A DNA stretch of 29,374 bases from a virus, in the IMG/VR virus record IMGVR_UViG_3300005581_000005, positions 1 through 29,374 of that record; one strand, given 5' to 3'. Both the position numbers and the translations under genes were made by a program. Shown in pieces: positions 8,736 to 29,374 of the stretch. The notes beneath the pieces are model-generated. The model searched no databases, was not told the origin of the DNA, and saw nothing but the letters and a program-made list of their open reading frames with translations. Numbering within the stretch: the first letter of the stretch is position 1; every line of letters begins with the position of its first letter.

Positions 8736-9107
8736 TCATTTGAACAGGTCATTGAATGTGGTGCCACCATTCCGCCTATCTTCTTCTTCCCAAAACTCTC
8801 TAATAGGTCCTAGTATCTGTTCAGCATCACGTGTTTGATGTTCAATGATTGGTTTTGAATCAGCGTTGATCTGACCTTTGCTGAAGTCTTTGGTAGTAAG
8901 TTCATTTAAGATCATGGTAGTATCACTGTGTTCTAATATATGTCGCCAGTTCTTGTAGTTGAAGTTGGCCGCATCCACGTAGGTGTGATACTCTAAACGA
9001 TCTTTGATGCCAATTAGGTCAATGCGTGTGACATAGCCACCAAGACGGCTTGATATCTTGCTTTGTTTTACAACCAAGTATGGTTGATGTTCGTTTGGAT
9101 TTGACAT
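8736..9107 (-). CDS. conserved phage protein of unknown function
   Basis: A 123-aa soluble protein. The first 60 residues carry YLVVKQSKISSRLGGYVTRI and DLIGIKDRLEYHTYVDAANF followed by NYKNWRHIL. This wording is familiar from small hypothetical proteins of aquatic phages. The second half is charged (GPIREFWEEEDRRNGGTTF). Its ATG overlaps the stop of the 67-aa gene (TAATG), so the two are coupled and expressed from the promoter at 9343-9371. A nucleic-acid role would fit the basic N-terminal half but is not shown. Confidence 0.7.
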   Translation of the reverse strand: MSNPNEHQPYLVVKQSKISSRLGGYVTRIDLIGIKDRLEYHTYVDAANFNYKNWRHILEHSDTTMILNELTTKDFSKGQINADSKPIIEHQTRDAEQILGPIREFWEEEDRRNGGTTFNDLFK

Positions 9108-9310
9108 TAGCGAGCACCATTTTTAACTGTTTTTAATCTTGCTTGTATTTCAGCAAGTGTAGATCCAGAATGATTTACTGCTGGTTGAATATATTTTGCC
9201 GGCTGTTCATTAAATTTCATATCCTCAATCTCTTCAAGACTGTCAGCTATGCGTTTTAACTGCCAACTGATACTATTTAACGCTAATTCTATTACTGTTT
9301 TCTCTGCCAA
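9107..9310 (-). CDS. small protein, TTG start, first gene after late promoter
   Basis: A 67-aa protein beginning with TTG (MAEKTVIELALNSISWQLK, then RIADSLEEIEDM). AAGGAG lies 8 nt before the TTG, and no other start codon in the frame has such a site. The N-terminal 40 residues form an amphipathic helix or coiled coil; the C-terminus (LAEIQARLKTVKNG) is again helical. No family recognised. It is the first gene downstream of a consensus sigma70 promoter, with a leader of about 25 nt, so it should be highly expressed. Confidence 0.7.
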   Translation of the reverse strand: MAEKTVIELALNSISWQLKRIADSLEEIEDMKFNEQPAKYIQPAVNHSGSTLAEIQARLKTVKNGAR

Positions 9311-9342
9311 TTTTACTTCTCCTTTAGTTAGTTTGTTGTTAT

Positions 9343-9371
9343 ATTATACTAGAACACGGATATATCGTCAA
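9343..9371 (-). promoter_or_regulatory. sigma70-type promoter P2 (late/structural genes)
   Basis: On the minus strand TTGACG (9371-9366) and a perfect TATAAT (9348-9343) are separated by exactly 17 nt. Transcription would start near 9335 and give a short leader ending in AAGGAG for the 67-aa gene. It lies in the 138-nt AT-rich gap between the polymerase-like gene and the small gene row. It is well placed to drive fibre, packaging and head genes. Confidence 0.8.
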
Positions 9372-9448
9372 GCCATATCTCTGCTCTTTTTGTTCAATTC
9401 CACACTAATAAATGCAGCATATGATATAATATATTTAATAGTAAGGTA

Positions 9449-10456
9449 TTAGTCCTCATACTTTGTCCAATCAAGTTTGATATCAAACCCAGTTGCTCGC
9501 TTAACTGCTCGCACAATCTCATTTGGATCTACTGCCTTGTCACAAGCCCACCCGTCGTGTATCCACAACCACCTCACAGAATTCTTCTTCAACAACCTCT
9601 TAATTGTCTTACCCACAGCTTGTTCTAATTCGCGATAGTATTTGGCTTTGTCTGTTGCTCTTAGTCGCTTTGAACTCCCAGTGATATCCGCTTTAAGTGA
9701 CTTCCATAACCTGCTGATGTCTTGTTTGATTGCTATTATGTCCGCATTGGTGTTAAGAGCATACACAGCTCTGAAGTTTCTCAATAATATCTCATTGAAA
9801 GTCTTATTGGTATCCCAACCGCTGACTACCCCTCCTTGTAATATGCTGTTGATTACACGCTTTACTTGTTCTTCAGATATGTGGCAGGCTTGTGCTATTC
9901 GCCTGCGAATTAAGTCACGATTGCCTACATAATAGTCTAGATTTGGCACCTTGAGGGTGGGGTTTAATCGCAGGGCTTGCTGTAGCAATAATGTGGCAGC
10001 GGCGGCCTCAATGTCATAGTGATAAAGATAGCCATTGTTGTTTAATATACTATTTCTTTTAGGTCGTGGATAGCATTGTAGCCAAGTATAACTGCGTTCG
10101 CTCTTATCCACATAGGCAAACTTGCCTGTAGCGAGTTGTAGTTGTTCATCTGACGTTAGCGATGTCGTGACATTACCATCCAGCAAGGCTACTACTCGTT
10201 GATATCCTGACGTGTTTAACACATACTTCTTACATTTGCCAGTCTGGTGATTCCAGTGTGAGTCTACACATTCAAGTAGTTCTGCTTTTAACCAACAGCT
10301 GAGTTCATTGCGATGGCTACCAAAGTGTTTGGGATCCTCAATAAATCGCTGTGACAAAGGTCTGGGAGTTGTTGAGACATATCTATCAACGAACTTTATA
10401 GCCAAGTTTGCTCTGCGTATGAATGCTTTGTTCTTGGGATTGGGGGAGTATGTCAT
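9449..10456 (-). CDS. putative minimal single-subunit polymerase (family A/T7 RNAP-like palm)
   Basis: A 335-aa protein and the only replication candidate in the genome. Three blocks appear in the order of a Pol A/T7 RNA polymerase catalytic core: motif A-like YHYDIEAAAATLLLQQAL (Asp about 148); an O-helix-like block VKRVINSILQGG (Lys about 199, Gly-Gly about 208-209), comparable to the K-R-x-V-x-x-x-x-Y-G helix but with Gln in place of Tyr; and motif C-like WLWIHDGWACDK (His-Asp about 300-301), followed by a helix EIVRAVKRATGF. Upstream, TGKCKKYVLN (about 72-81) is reminiscent of phage/plasmid replicases that carry a DIKNSQP-type motif A. No exonuclease or primase domain is present. The ATG at 10456 overlaps the previous stop (ATGA); a TTG at 10498 is the less likely start. 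Family assignment rests on motif reading only. Confidence 0.55.
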   Translation of the reverse strand: MTYSPNPKNKAFIRRANLAIKFVDRYVSTTPRPLSQRFIEDPKHFGSHRNELSCWLKAELLECVDSHWNHQTGKCKKYVLNTSGYQRVVALLDGNVTTSLTSDEQLQLATGKFAYVDKSERSYTWLQCYPRPKRNSILNNNGYLYHYDIEAAAATLLLQQALRLNPTLKVPNLDYYVGNRDLIRRRIAQACHISEEQVKRVINSILQGGVVSGWDTNKTFNEILLRNFRAVYALNTNADIIAIKQDISRLWKSLKADITGSSKRLRATDKAKYYRELEQAVGKTIKRLLKKNSVRWLWIHDGWACDKAVDPNEIVRAVKRATGFDIKLDWTKYED

Positions 10457-10677
10457 TGGCTGGTAATCTGTGGACGTGTTTTCAGCACCTGTTCCCAACG
10501 AGGTGCCATGTCCTCACTTACCCAGATGATATGCATGTCATGTTGGAGACAATACAGCTCAGCTCGGTGTGGACCTTTGTCAGTGTGATATCTGACCTCA
10601 GCTGGACAATACCTATGCCGTTCAATTGGTGGTATAGTTTGGATATACTTCTTGCGTGGCTTCTTGCTCTTGGGCAT
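10453..10677 (-). CDS. small basic Cys/His phage protein
   Basis: A 74-aa protein. It opens with a basic tail (MPKSKKPRKKY). Then come YCPAEVRYHTDKGPHRAELY with Cys 24 and CLQHDMHIIWVSE. The phrase H-x-A-x-L-x-C-x-x-(C/H)-x-x-H-I-x-W-(L/V) matches a small conserved phage family that usually carries a CxxC zinc pair. Here the second Cys of the pair is replaced by His. Nucleic-acid binding is plausible. It is coupled to its upstream neighbour by TAATG and to the polymerase-like gene by ATGA, so it may act in replication. Confidence 0.7.
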   Translation of the reverse strand: MPKSKKPRKKYIQTIPPIERHRYCPAEVRYHTDKGPHRAELYCLQHDMHIIWVSEDMAPRWEQVLKTRPQITSQ

Positions 10678-16500: not shown

Positions 16501-17743
16501 GCATGTAAGCACGGAAGTTTTGCAATAATGTTTTTACATTATTCATGATACTGCTGTCTGTCTGTATCACAGCATTCAATGTTAGAATACGATGTGTTTG
16601 TCCAGCTACACTGCTAGGCACCATTTGATTACATTTAAAGGCGGCCTTATACCATGTGTCCCAATCGATGTCATCATTCTTAAGACCTTTACCATAACGA
16701 GGATTGCGTAGGTAGTCTAATAGGCATTCTACTGGATTGGTTGAATAGCGTTCATTAGTGCCATAAGCACCAGACTCTGTTGATGTAACTTTGGTATTGT
16801 AAGGATTATTCTGATTAGCTATATTGCTTTGTGTGTATAATGGCGTAACTTTACGTCCAAGTAATTCAATATGCACTAAAGGAATGCTACCACTAAATGG
16901 ATTGTCTTCACCAGCTATCCATTCATATCTAGCCCAAATAGTGCATAGACCATTATGCACCATGGTTGATTTATAACCATTATCACCTGTGGGCACACCT
17001 TCAAATACACCACCTGCGCCTAATACATAGTCATTAACTGTTATGGCACTGGGATTGGTAAAGTATTCACCTTTTTGGAAGAATAGTTTAACACGATCCT
17101 TATATTTGCCCCAGGTAACATTAACTGGTTTGTTAGATTCTTTGGTTTCACTCATACTGGCATTTAAGTATGCTGGCACTGTATTACCTGCACCGGCACC
17201 TGGATTACTTTCATCTAGATCCCAATCATCAATATAAACTTTAACTAGACCTTCAACAGGTCCTTCACACATGGTATAGCAGACCCAGAGATATTTGTTT
17301 TTGTCTGCGCCTGTAGTGGCAAATGTCACTACTCCAGCTATACGGCGATGTCCATAAACAATAGGTATCTGTTCAACACTACCACGACGTTGTATTTGAA
17401 CACCTTCTGCTTGTTTGGTAGCTGATTCTTGATTACTAAGATCAGGCATCTTCATGCCAAGGAAACCTAGGAATGCTGTTGATGCATAAACAGCGGCACC
17501 TATTGCGATAGCACCTACAACTACTGCGGCAGTGCCAGCGAATCCTAAGAATGCACCAACTGCTGTAAAGATTGCTGTGATAGGGTCAGCGTTAGCTGAA
17601 CTGCTATAAGTTAACAGTCCAATGAATATGCTAAGTGGACTATACATAACAAACCAGATAGCTTTTGATAAGAATTCTTTAAATTTGTTATTCTTAATTT
17701 TAGTATCTGCTTTTAACTGCTGACAAAATAAATCATTGTTCAT
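13520..17743 (-). CDS. tail tip protein J-like (host specificity)
   Basis: The largest protein, 1407 aa, in the position of lambda gpJ. It should form the tail tip that contacts the receptor and opens the tail. The N-terminus is unusual: a basic stretch, then a signal-peptide-like segment (about 28-52, ending SSANADP) and a long Gly/Ala-rich hydrophobic region (about 55-97). Next comes the conserved J/TipJ core: IPIVYGHRRIAGVVTFATTG (about 125-144), CLLDYLRNPRYGKG, and a hub region with DALxM-like LDMAQLIFNKSRFQ. A Pro-rich linker and fibronectin-like beta domains follow, with a Thr-run hinge at about 808-833. It overlaps the GNAT-like gene by 11 nt. Confidence 0.85.
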   Translation of the reverse strand: MNNDLFCQQLKADTKIKNNKFKEFLSKAIWFVMYSPLSIFIGLLTYSSSANADPITAIFTAVGAFLGFAGTAAVVVGAIAIGAAVYASTAFLGFLGMKMPDLSNQESATKQAEGVQIQRRGSVEQIPIVYGHRRIAGVVTFATTGADKNKYLWVCYTMCEGPVEGLVKVYIDDWDLDESNPGAGAGNTVPAYLNASMSETKESNKPVNVTWGKYKDRVKLFFQKGEYFTNPSAITVNDYVLGAGGVFEGVPTGDNGYKSTMVHNGLCTIWARYEWIAGEDNPFSGSIPLVHIELLGRKVTPLYTQSNIANQNNPYNTKVTSTESGAYGTNERYSTNPVECLLDYLRNPRYGKGLKNDDIDWDTWYKAAFKCNQMVPSSVAGQTHRILTLNAVIQTDSSIMNNVKTLLQNFRAYMPYQQGKYKLKIEDAGNETDILSGVATIKRTFSTMKSSQRRGVSPPVDNIIGDVSYTGIERSAKYNQVVVQYVEPDEKFTNQSVTYPVTEANGRNPDGSSYFGRQYYFLEDGSRDYKYEITLPGITNRDQALDMAQLIFNKSRFQETCTLTVTSEAHNLELGDSIYISSTVLDFIDPVDATNTIPWRIVSKTLKDNHNFELQCVRNPETIYPYTRKGEKDIVLPIYVPKGAERQLAQNVELYPRGIVPPTRASLPSGTSVSSNPIINANPSNVAPSNNTVSSTTVSTPLADSITISGQATRFIGGQTYVLLQWRQPSVAMFRSVVFTFTPRTGLGAGNPTQTFEYIGAPVEGEAISFLVGPVVSNTHYDCTSRIKYSTLQNSSITRTFEVITEVETTAASTTTNTTTTTTNPAPPSTPTVTPVYAEVVTNRDNYCLTLAGNITAANYAADPRIISWTLTTNQANPDIIGFNYYLKPTAETYWTRLEHRSIGNIAFNSSLANTFTTSLAAYGRATAFDLIIRVAYKDSSESTKQQRFSFNITSPFNTYPYNFFYGINASASPNPLQETTSFTPELAPPTFVGTAANVKMNIASVRFSSTDGMIITMDPPALADRSYWYGQTIRYRPFTPGGNPIYQTLRDTTSWTTAAGPGGAVYVTPTIRPITYDQKYEVVATPYVLVGNAKVDSNFSWYGVGAINNSTTSIIYPPDGNWNGVFNWQNVRTSQALQTINTAFAPPDMTSSVVQLSAFNTFNVNNNFSVDSVDNGTSFVLQSYHTLTYSGVGITNFRGVRIYRRSIQPPSGGVGESVGNNAKYYGWGRWEQIDTTATTVTLRGPTVAAEFNPYYEVTGYAGNTNLLNRGYQGLYNGLLANNGKNQILPAKSGSQQFLIVVQFNDLSFSTRGLLINCARHSTSSPNPYNQLKPNLPTNVALADYNNYTGGYQRNLSEARSVLTNTGIGLSAAQPYAPAGTTASITKFVSYPTTDTAIPGAISPAIQ

Positions 17744-18200
17744 ATTTTATCTCTCTGTAGGCAAACAAACCTTCTTTAAATCCTAAGTATCCTAATACCT
17801 TACGACTACGCTCAACATCTATACCAATGTCACCAGATAGGATTTTTGTAGCACCTTTTGTTTTTGCCCATTCTTCAAATTTTTCTAACAAGGCTTTAAA
17901 GTTTTCCATTGTGCGATAATTTTCTAATAGGAATCTAAATTGTATGCTGGCTTGGCATGTTTTACCCCAAGGCATTTGAACTACAAATCCAGCAATAAAC
18001 CCTACTGGACGTTGACCGTCAAAGGCAACAAGTAATGTATGAGTATGTTGAATACTCCAAGCGCGAATATTTTCTACAATAATTTGATCGCTGATTTCAC
18101 CTGCAATTTCTGGCATTGCTTTACTAGCTTCTTCAACAAACTGATGTATGACTGATAATAAATCATCTATCTCTCCAGGATGTATTTTTCTAATTTCCAT
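17733..18200 (-). CDS. GNAT-family acetyltransferase-like protein in tail module
   Basis: A 155-aa protein with a GNAT fold reading: IRKIHPGEIDDLLSVIHQFV at the start, LLVAFDGQRPVGFIAGFV (about 57-74, strands beta3-beta4), QASIQFRFLLENYRTMENFK (about 83-102, where the acetyl-CoA loop would be, though the R/Q-x-x-G-x-G/A motif is degraded), then FEEWAKTKGATKILSGDIG and VLGYLGFKEGLFAYREIK. The chosen ATG at 18200 has GGGGA 9 nt upstream; an ATG at 18239 would add 13 residues without a ribosome site. It sits between the L-like and J-like genes, where lambda has K and I. The weak cofactor loop suggests a structural or chaperone role, or a diverged enzyme. Confidence 0.7.
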   Translation of the reverse strand: MEIRKIHPGEIDDLLSVIHQFVEEASKAMPEIAGEISDQIIVENIRAWSIQHTHTLLVAFDGQRPVGFIAGFVVQMPWGKTCQASIQFRFLLENYRTMENFKALLEKFEEWAKTKGATKILSGDIGIDVERSRKVLGYLGFKEGLFAYREIKYEQ

Positions 18201-18223
18201 TTGACTATTTCCCCATTGCGCTA

Positions 18224-18847
18224 TTATAAGCGCCCCCATAAAAAATTACTCTGACCTACAAAACCTGCTTGTTCCATACTGGTATCATGTGTATTACCAT
18301 CTTGGAATAGATGGTTACTACCATTATTGGTTCTACGACCTGCTACTCTTTCAAAATCACTGAATAGACTTGAACAATCTACATTAATCTGACAACTACT
18401 GCCAGTTTCTGATATGCTGATATTGTAAATTATGCCATCAAATAGTATAATTGGATCAGGAATTATCGTAAGACTTTCAATATTGTTGGTGATTGTGTAT
18501 TCTAAAAACGCACGATAGATAACCACACGCTGTCCTTCTGGACTATAAGCAGTAAATCTATTGACGTAATCATTGCTTACACCACTGAGACTGATTGAGA
18601 ATTTGCCTACCTTAACTTCAAAATCTTCAGTCATGGTGCTCATGCCTATAAAATTGCCTTGTGCTTCATAGACATTGGTGCCCGCAGTAGGAGCAGTATT
18701 GCTGTTGAAACTTATATTGTATCCGCCACCACAGAGATATAAAGGATCGCTGACACCTGAACTATTTTTTAGATGTAATTCTAAAAGATCTACCGCAGTG
18801 TAATTATCTAGATATGTGGAATTGACCACAGCATTGCTATAAGACAT
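18224..18847 (-). CDS. minor tail protein L-like (DUF2163-like)
   Basis: A 207-aa protein. The C-terminal half carries DCSSLFSDFERVAGRRTNNG followed by FLWGRL at the end. This pattern (…DFERVxGRRT…) is known from lambda gpL-like and DUF2163 tail-tip proteins. The middle is beta-rich with KFSISLSGVSND and VVIYRAFLEYTI, as in baseplate hub layers. Lambda gpL binds an iron-sulfur cluster through conserved Cys; here I see Cys at about 39, 153 and 158, not the same set. The ATG overlaps the stop of the M-like gene (TAATG). Confidence 0.7.
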   Translation of the reverse strand: MSYSNAVVNSTYLDNYTAVDLLELHLKNSSGVSDPLYLCGGGYNISFNSNTAPTAGTNVYEAQGNFIGMSTMTEDFEVKVGKFSISLSGVSNDYVNRFTAYSPEGQRVVIYRAFLEYTITNNIESLTIIPDPIILFDGIIYNISISETGSSCQINVDCSSLFSDFERVAGRRTNNGSNHLFQDGNTHDTSMEQAGFVGQSNFLWGRL

Positions 18848-27592: not shown

Positions 27593-29374
27593 TTAATCTG
27601 TAATAGGACCGCCAACTACCCAAGCATCACAAGTTCTTGAACTTGCACACTTGAAGTCAAAGGCTTCACAATAACCTAATTCACCAGCAGCTATGGTATC
27701 ATATTCATTACCAGTTGCACCACCAGCACTAAGTCCAGTGTTGATACAATCTTTTATTTTTGCTGTGACATTGAAAGCCGCACAATTACCACAACGGCTA
27801 GTTTTAGCTTCTACAGGAGTTACATTCCACATATCAGCTTTGGCTAACCAGAATACCGTATTAGGCAGTGAGGGATTTAAAGGACCATAGTTGGCTGTGT
27901 TAATAGCCTTTTGTCTGTTCGCCAAGTTTACTGCGACATCTTGCGTGGCGATTGGGCAAGATGCCTGATTAAAACCCTCTGTGGGCAAATCCAACAATAG
28001 TTGTTTAGCTCTAATAATATCTTCTTGTGTTAATTCAGGACGCTGAGCCAGTATCTGTTCATCTGTTAAGCCATCCATGATCATCTGTTGTATCATTCCA
28101 TCAACACCTGGACTTACTGGACTTGATGGCGGTGCGTTGGTGCTGGCTAGCTGTTGTCCACGAATTTCTGCGGCTATACGGTTTATATCATCGATTTCTT
28201 CTTGATATTCTGCCTGTTCATATGATTCTTCGTCACCCATGGTGTATCTTGGATCATCTAATAAATGTCTAAGATTGTATTCAATAACTGCTATAGCATC
28301 TGGTGTAGTAGCTGTTTGTTTAGCTGTGTATAAATTCTTATATTCATTAGCTGTGTCACGTATGTTGAATGCACCAGGATATTCTATCTCACCATCCCAA
28401 ACACCACCTTCATACTGTGCCCAGATACGCCACATCTGTTCTTCTGCCAGTTCAAGAGCATCAGCAAATTCTGCTAACTTTGCTCCTAACAATTGAAATT
28501 CAACTTCCATGGCAATGCCACTAAGCACTTGTGTTTCATTAGCACGCACACTGCCAGTGTTGGCCATTTTATCAATAGCTGCCACGCTGGCATTGATTGC
28601 TGAATAGATCTGATTGATATCAGTTGACACATTTAGCAAGTATGGTTTTAGATTTGGATCCATATCATCAGGCATGAGTGCAATACTGCCTGCACCAGCA
28701 CTTGCTTCTACGCCAGGTGTTTTAACCAATGTAGGATGTCCTGATAATCTAATACTTTGTTCAACTTCACTGTTTAAATTATAGATACTTTTTTGGTAAT
28801 CAGCTATGTCAGTAATTAAACTAGCACCAACACCACGCACTGGACTGCGTGCGGCATAGCAGATAACTGCTGGTATACGACCTAATTGATTAACTTCTAC
28901 TGTTTGATCAACTATTTCTTGTTTTTGATTGTTTAATTGGCTAGTAGTAATAGTTTCTTTTGTCCATTCTTTAACTGTTGAGAATGTGTCATTGACTTCT
29001 TCTAGATATTTGATATAGCTAAGTTCATAAGCACCACTTGGTTGACGTTGCCAGGTCCAATCTGTAACTACTAATGGTGTCAATACATTTACATATGGAC
29101 GCACACCCTGTTCAAGTTCACCAGCACGTGTTTGAGCATTGGTCTGTGGTTTGGCTACGATAATCCAACAATGACCAAATACTGCACTCCATATGGCCAC
29201 ATCTTTCATGAAAGCATCAAGTGTTCTTCCATCTAGGTCAGCATCTTCAAGAAATGGTAAAAGATTTAGATTATCACTGAGGCTAGCATATTCTCTGTCA
29301 GGTTCTTCACGGAATAAAAAACTGGTATAGGTGCTGATAATCGCGCGACAGTGATTGTCTAAAGGTGTTGTGGC
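27593..29374 (-). CDS. portal protein, main part (starts at 293 across the junction)
   Basis: Codons from about residue 62 to the end of the 654-aa portal. The portal core shows VRPYVNVLTPLVVTDWTWQR, AVICYAARSPVRG, a long stem helix NLNSEVEQSIRLSGHPTLVK, and the crown helices ending QMIMDGLTDEQILAQRPELT. The DUF4055-like portal should end about there. Residues 534-654 are an extra domain: CPIATQDVAVNLANRQKAIN, TANYGPLNPSLPN, ADMWNVTPVEAKTSRCGNCA, GYCEAFDFKC and RTCDAWVVGGPI. Six Cys (589, 592, 604, 630, 637, 643) are spaced C-x2-C-x11-C-x25-C-x6-C-x5-C, suggesting a metal or Fe-S site. Elsewhere, this segment is known to me as a separate small phage protein, so this is a fusion. Confidence 0.9.
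   Translation of the reverse strand, partial: ATTPLDNHCRAIISTYTSFLFREEPDREYASLSDNLNLLPFLEDADLDGRTLDAFMKDVAIWSAVFGHCWIIVAKPQTNAQTRAGELEQGVRPYVNVLTPLVVTDWTWQRQPSGAYELSYIKYLEEVNDTFSTVKEWTKETITTSQLNNQKQEIVDQTVEVNQLGRIPAVICYAARSPVRGVGASLITDIADYQKSIYNLNSEVEQSIRLSGHPTLVKTPGVEASAGAGSIALMPDDMDPNLKPYLLNVSTDINQIYSAINASVAAIDKMANTGSVRANETQVLSGIAMEVEFQLLGAKLAEFADALELAEEQMWRIWAQYEGGVWDGEIEYPGAFNIRDTANEYKNLYTAKQTATTPDAIAVIEYNLRHLLDDPRYTMGDEESYEQAEYQEEIDDINRIAAEIRGQQLASTNAPPSSPVSPGVDGMIQQMIMDGLTDEQILAQRPELTQEDIIRAKQLLLDLPTEGFNQASCPIATQDVAVNLANRQKAINTANYGPLNPSLPNTVFWLAKADMWNVTPVEAKTSRCGNCAAFNVTAKIKDCINTGLSAGGATGNEYDTIAAGELGYCEAFDFKCASSRTCDAWVVGGPITD
29265..29374. repeat. terminal direct repeat, right copy
   Basis: Exact copy of bases 1-110. 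The unit length is therefore 29,264 bp, and the window is the whole circle plus a 110-base overlap. Confidence 0.95.

Follow-up and report, generated by a model that had tools for sequence, protein, structure and literature searches.

A minimal TV-Pol-like family A palm protein of a 29-kb phage, exchanged in place for an unrelated gene in a sister phage

The 335-aa protein P0001, encoded in a viral DNA stretch of 29,374 nucleotides (IMG/VR record IMGVR_UViG_3300005581_000005, the whole of which is called the window below), carries a palm and fingers that we assign with high confidence to family A of the DNA polymerases. Its gene is exchanged precisely for an unrelated one in a nearly identical sister phage, and P0001 is probably a swappable helper, not the complete replication enzyme of the phage. 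The reading we lean towards is that P0001 is a divergent and minimal enzyme of TV-Pol-like type that acts together with the host replisome, either as a primase or in primer extension.

The P0001 open reading frame was called on the minus strand, which carries all evident genes of the window, from an ATG at 10456 to a stop codon at 9449-9451. The ATGA overlap with the gene directly upstream (Table 1) argues that P0001 is a real, translationally coupled gene. The window starts and ends with an exact 110-bp repeat (1-110 = 29265-29374) and thus has the look of a complete phage genome (about 29.3 kb) assembled as a circle; the portal gene spans its ends, which indicates that it is circular or circularly permuted. 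An acetyltransferase gene (PHROG 1249) lies between tail genes at 17733-18239, and the same position is held by an acetyltransferase in DSL-LC06 and by a lysine-acyltransferase in pelagiphages.

The Pfam profiles DnaB_C, D5_N and SSB gave zero matches in the window, the GxxxxGK[ST] motif occurs in no ORF and the remaining scanned genes belong to no replication family. As far as these family scans reach, the original prediction was therefore right in seeing no other helicase, primase or replicase, several small genes having no assigned function. Among the latter, neither the 67-aa gene that accompanies P0001 nor the 123-aa gene beyond it was matched in the family scan. The version of the 123-aa protein encoded by the related contig G004 ends in FGDLFE, an SSB-like acidic tip. 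From its sequence, the 123-aa protein is a candidate single-stranded DNA-binding partner of P0001 and may adopt an OB fold.

Table 1. Coordinates of P0001, its motif blocks, neighbouring genes and the exchanged segment (window positions unless a contig is named).
Feature	Position	Strand	Description
P0001, TV-Pol-like family A palm protein	9449..10456	-	ORF, profile match, model of a relative
Probable beta-hairpin block ERSYTWLQ	10076..10099	-	residues 120-127, Arg121; profile alignment
Motif A block YHYDIEAAAATL	9989..10024	-	residues 145-156; Asp148 catalytic; gap-free alignment to family motif A
Motif B (O-helix) block VKRVINSILQGG	9830..9865	-	residues 198-209; Lys199, Gln207 at Tyr766 position
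Motif C block WIHDGWACDK	9536..9565	-	residues 298-307; His300-Asp301
74-aa gene, directly upstream of P0001	10453..10677	-	stop overlaps P0001 start (ATGA)
67-aa gene, function unassigned, accompanies P0001 in the exchanged segment	9107..9310	-
123-aa conserved gene, acidic C-terminal tip FNDLFK	8736..9107	-	kept in L085, G004, G005
Segment with P0001 and the 67-aa gene, exchanged in L085 for an unrelated 238-aa gene	9108..10460	.
238-aa gene, family unassigned	L085:5283-5999

Searched directly, the P0001 sequence had no match in Pfam (DNA_pol_A included), PHROGs, NCBIfam or the PDB sequences, and no direct match in phage records (tblastn), viral contigs or genome contigs. The entry point was a tblastn match with E = 4, not significant alone, to the 7.2-kb Polaromonas plasmid pW9NP1, whose alignment crosses the motif B and C blocks in a 538-aa 'hypothetical protein'. 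Used as a query, this 538-aa protein led to a second Polaromonas plasmid, a Desulfovibrio phage, a viral contig and ten bacterial contigs. A family profile was built from 13 plasmid and phage relatives, leaving P0001 out of the training set. It scored P0001 at 61.3 bits (E = 8e-18), against 6.7 bits for the best of 2,000 shuffles of the P0001 sequence, and all other ORFs of the phage loci remained within noise. The match covers residues 126-329, with motifs A, B and C aligned in the same order, so that the three blocks originally proposed as a polymerase core are indeed these motifs. A virion-protein identity of P0001 is excluded by the same match.

The profile did not match its N-terminal domain to residues 1-100, and P0001 thus has no detectable form of the N-terminal domain of its relatives; the idea that this domain had been kept was dropped, the corresponding matches appearing only when P0001 was in the training set. 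The hairpin, palm and fingers extend from about residue 105 to the C-terminus, which leaves a protein of 335 aa too short for an exonuclease domain.

Comparing the family with bacterial Pol A by hhalign gave P about 2-3e-4, pairing GRLY...LQN with Pol A GRLSSSDPNLQN, the motif A Asp with Asp and K...YG with K...YG. Motif C was misaligned in this comparison. Against PDB sequences, the family profile gave chance matches only. A protein of Microcystis phage Ma-LMM01 adjoining a transposase was matched at 5.5e-7 without P0001 and at 1.2e-9 with P0001 in the profile; we take it to be the TV-Pol protein that Iyer et al. reported. Few chromosomes contain the family (2/399 and 1/369 genomes in the genome searches, seed genomes counted) and P0001 itself is known from one genome.

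The two catalytic residues Asp148 and Asp301, the O-helix Lys199 and the motif C His300 are kept in P0001, as are Gly208 and Arg184, the latter invariant across the family. Family motif A was aligned to Pol A DYSQIE; the motif A block first described, YDIEAAAATLLL, spans residues 147-158 and includes Asp148. In the profile alignment, ERSYTWLQ corresponds to family GRLY...LQ and to Pol A GRL...NLQN. The assignment of the hairpin Arg is uncertain, a MAFFT alignment placing Gly111-Lys112 at this site instead of Arg121. The QGVEA segment, strongly conserved in the family, is degenerate in P0001, which retains Gln279 only. Motifs A and B are separated by 51 residues and motifs B and C by 102. E. 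coli Pol I has 53 and 124 residues at these intervals, T7 RNA polymerase 94 and 181. By this sequence measure, P0001 is close to a family A DNA polymerase and unlike T7 RNA polymerase.

The AlphaFold2 model of P0001 was poor (mean pLDDT 51.8) and a fold search with it returned Pol A chains at Z 2.5-3.4 among unrelated rows. The fold was therefore established on a relative, L068 (509 aa), modelled with AlphaFold2 from an alignment of 11 sequences, P0001 included. This model has a pLDDT of 75, exceeding 90 over much of the palm. Its matches in the PDB comprise DNA polymerase theta (Z 18.5, rmsd 4.3, 292 residues aligned), T7 DNA polymerase (Z 17.8) and Klenow (Z 17.4), and in a VIA-align PDB search 50/50 among the matches listed were family A DNA polymerases. 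The proposed check for a palm fold, made on this relative, thus returned a family A polymerase, and the original description of P0001 as a very small palm protein devoid of exonuclease is supported. Searching with Foldseek also detected T7 RNA polymerase, ranked lower. As the DNA polymerases rank clearly higher, T7-type RNA polymerase was set aside as nearest kin. In a viral structure library, the L068 model matched the Zamilon virophage replication protein, the Qinghai Lake virophage helicase/primase/polymerase and uncharacterised Caudovirales proteins.

We compared P0001 with known systems. The TV-Pols, encoded by transposons and viruses, are minimal polymerases of family A predicted to be primase-polymerases (Iyer, Abhiman and Aravind 2008, PMC2579912), and are carried by Sputnik (V13), SCCmec and Microcystis phage Ma-LMM01 (PMC2579912). 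P0001 resembles them in its family A palm with two Asp, its O-helix Lys and its lack of a nuclease domain, in belonging to a family carried by mobile elements, in the profile link to the Ma-LMM01 protein and in the structural link of the L068 model to virophage replication proteins. It differs from them in its length of 335 aa, with neither N-terminal domain nor D5 helicase, in its degenerate QGVEA segment and its O-helix Gln in place of Tyr, in having no helicase or resolvase neighbour, and in its fingers, where Glu195 stands four residues before Lys199 in place of the Arg of RxxxK. An Arg at this spacing is likewise missing from the plasmid relatives and from the Ma-LMM01 protein. Because of the absent RxxxK pattern and of the absent helicase or resolvase neighbour, we call P0001 TV-Pol-like and not a strict TV-Pol.

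The SCCmec enzyme CcPol synthesizes primers de novo in complex with its partner MP and, alone, performs primer extension only (PMC7581432, PMC10061031); MP-like partners are predicted to have OB folds (PMC10061031). P0001 shares with this PolA-SSB pair a Pol A domain without active exonuclease, a mobile-element setting and a possible small partner nearby. However, CcPol keeps an E710-type gate residue (E174) where P0001 has Ala153, and P0001 has no proven OB-fold partner and no helicase in its operon. The homologues detected include those of the Polaromonas plasmids pW9NP1 and pH8NP1 and of Simplicispira, Rhodoferax, Nitrosospira and other relatives, whose palm and fingers are co-linear with P0001 but which, at about 500 aa and ~20% identity, also have the N-terminal domain undetectable in P0001. 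Since the relatives of P0001 are plasmid and phage TV-Pol-like proteins, the earlier pointer to DIKNSQP-type plasmid and phage replicases was right in spirit. The divPolA2 of Caudoviricetes (PMC11348598) is likewise an extra, divergent phage Pol A palm with no exonuclease and no usual thumb; it was first found in phages of 80-85 kb also having PolB (PMC11348598), and its comparison with P0001 is by description only. Klenow, T7 DNA polymerase and Pol theta have fold and motif order in common with the P0001 family, whereas P0001 is at most half their size, has no exonuclease and shows altered gate residues.

Several TV-Pol-like proteins were noted along the way. Those of the Polaromonas plasmids (L060:37-1653 and L061:5926-7431), which also encode RepA and a recombinase, are unannotated as such, one of the two being labelled a Clp protease N-terminal domain protein. 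Other unannotated cases were seen (L075:2098-3954 and L062:2176-4500; Vibrio phages GR7B/GR11A and Desulfovibrio phage 7757), as well as weaker matches in a set of Erwinia jumbo phages. An order-wide search gave a weak TV-Pol-like frame of 588 aa in a bacterial genome (L077:616-2379, minus strand), which keeps the RL-F hairpin and motif A and has FDGF, not HDGF, as motif C.

The place of P0001 in the phage was examined by comparison with L085, a sister-phage fragment of 12.4 kb whose sequence on either flank of the exchanged segment shares 92-99% identity with the window. The boundaries of the exchange are exact, from the end of the 74-aa gene to the ATG of the 123-aa gene. Homologues of the 238-aa gene found there (L050:5101-5796, minus strand, and L059:369-1184) have acidic C-terminal tails as in single-stranded DNA-binding proteins, and in two more distant relatives such homologues adjoin the 123-aa gene. 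After the 123-aa gene, L085 encodes an extra 465-aa DNA methyltransferase-like protein (L085:6369-7766) absent from the window, so that the locus is variable. No P0001 homologue was detected by tblastn in DSL-LC06, HTVC026P and HTVC111P, nor in the 18 contigs with related terminases (G001-G018, mostly fragments). In both HTVC026P and HTVC111P a DnaD-domain gene is present and no polymerase is annotated, a gene content consistent with use of the host replisome. From the exchange, the relatives in which P0001 goes undetected and the gene content of these relatives, we conclude that the fixed replication apparatus of the phage group does not include P0001. The proposal that a 29-kb phage replicates with P0001 is not supported. 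P0001 may stand in functionally for the 238-aa gene, or the locus may be a site open to accessory genes, L085 having its extra methyltransferase there; the latter possibility weakens the inference that the exchanged genes share one job.

Another explanation of P0001 is a cargo gene, accessory or selfish, that is not essential to the phage and is possibly decaying. TV-Pol genes move with mobile elements, the exchange occurs within an otherwise near-identical genome, the relatives sit on plasmids with recombinases and are rare in chromosomes, and the QGVEA region is degenerate. However, the catalytic residues are intact, the 335-aa frame is open and translationally coupled and the exchange is exact at gene boundaries, in the style of a modular replacement. 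We consider this explanation unlikely.

An RNA-making enzyme, either an RNA primase or a small transcriptase, was considered from two residues, Ala153 at the position of Pol I E710 (the ribonucleotide gate) and Gln207 at the Tyr766 position. In Pol I, Glu710 excludes ribonucleotides. T7 RNA polymerase, cited for this reading, has Gly at the gate position and Tyr at the O-helix position; the gate alanine of P0001 is suggestive and proves nothing. Against such a reading, the family points to DNA polymerases by its motif spacing and its structure matches, among which T7 RNA polymerase ranks lower, and both residues vary among relatives: His, Gln or Val is found at the gate, and the proteins of Vibrio phage GR7B and of Ma-LMM01 have Phe and Asn, respectively, at the equivalent of Gln207. 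The original observation of a Gln in place of the O-helix Tyr is therefore correct, although Gln207 lies within the range of relatives and is less special than first believed; a new template or nucleotide preference is a conjecture from two residues. We regard an RNA-making enzyme as improbable. Finally, a replicative DNA polymerase copying the whole phage genome is the most doubtful of these alternatives: P0001 is the sole polymerase-like gene of a complete-looking genome with a 110-bp end repeat and has a DNA-polymerase-like spacing, but it is replaced by an unrelated gene in L085, which weighs most against this role, has no homologue in the related phages and contigs searched, and comes without helicase or proofreading and with a very small N-terminal/thumb region.

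Under the preferred reading of a TV-Pol-like helper, P0001 would bind single-stranded phage DNA, helped by a partner for which the 123-aa protein is the candidate, and would make or extend short primers on phage DNA early in infection. These would be handed over to host Pol III, the host replisome doing the bulk of the synthesis, as is suggested by the window having no helicase and the related phages no annotated polymerase. With Ala at its ribonucleotide-gate position, P0001 may also accept rNTPs, like T7 RNA polymerase with Gly there. A primase role is suggested by the predicted primase-polymerase nature of the TV-Pols (PMC2579912) and the de novo priming by CcPol-MP (PMC7581432, PMC10061031). 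We counted against this reading that P0001 has no adjoining D5 helicase, resolvase or proven SSB, that RxxxK is absent and QGVEA degenerate, that its own model is poor and that it comes from one genome only. A bolder version, to which we give little credence, would make P0001 the smallest known self-sufficient family A primase, a single piece with neither helicase nor N-terminal domain that would start chains de novo, perhaps from rNTPs or dNTPs in view of its Ala gate and O-helix Gln, and that some small phages would have acquired in place of an unrelated replication gene.

P0001 is an extreme, stand-alone addition to a polymerase group whose members are mostly known from prediction; in the literature found, biochemical assays within the TV-Pol-like group concern CcPol-MP only. 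The plasmid and large-phage proteins of this kind form an unannotated set, missed or left without function in Pfam, NCBIfam and PHROGs. TV-Pol-like enzymes thus occur in small tailed phages that otherwise apparently use the host replisome, and the in-place exchange between near-identical genomes provides a natural pair for asking what P0001 does.
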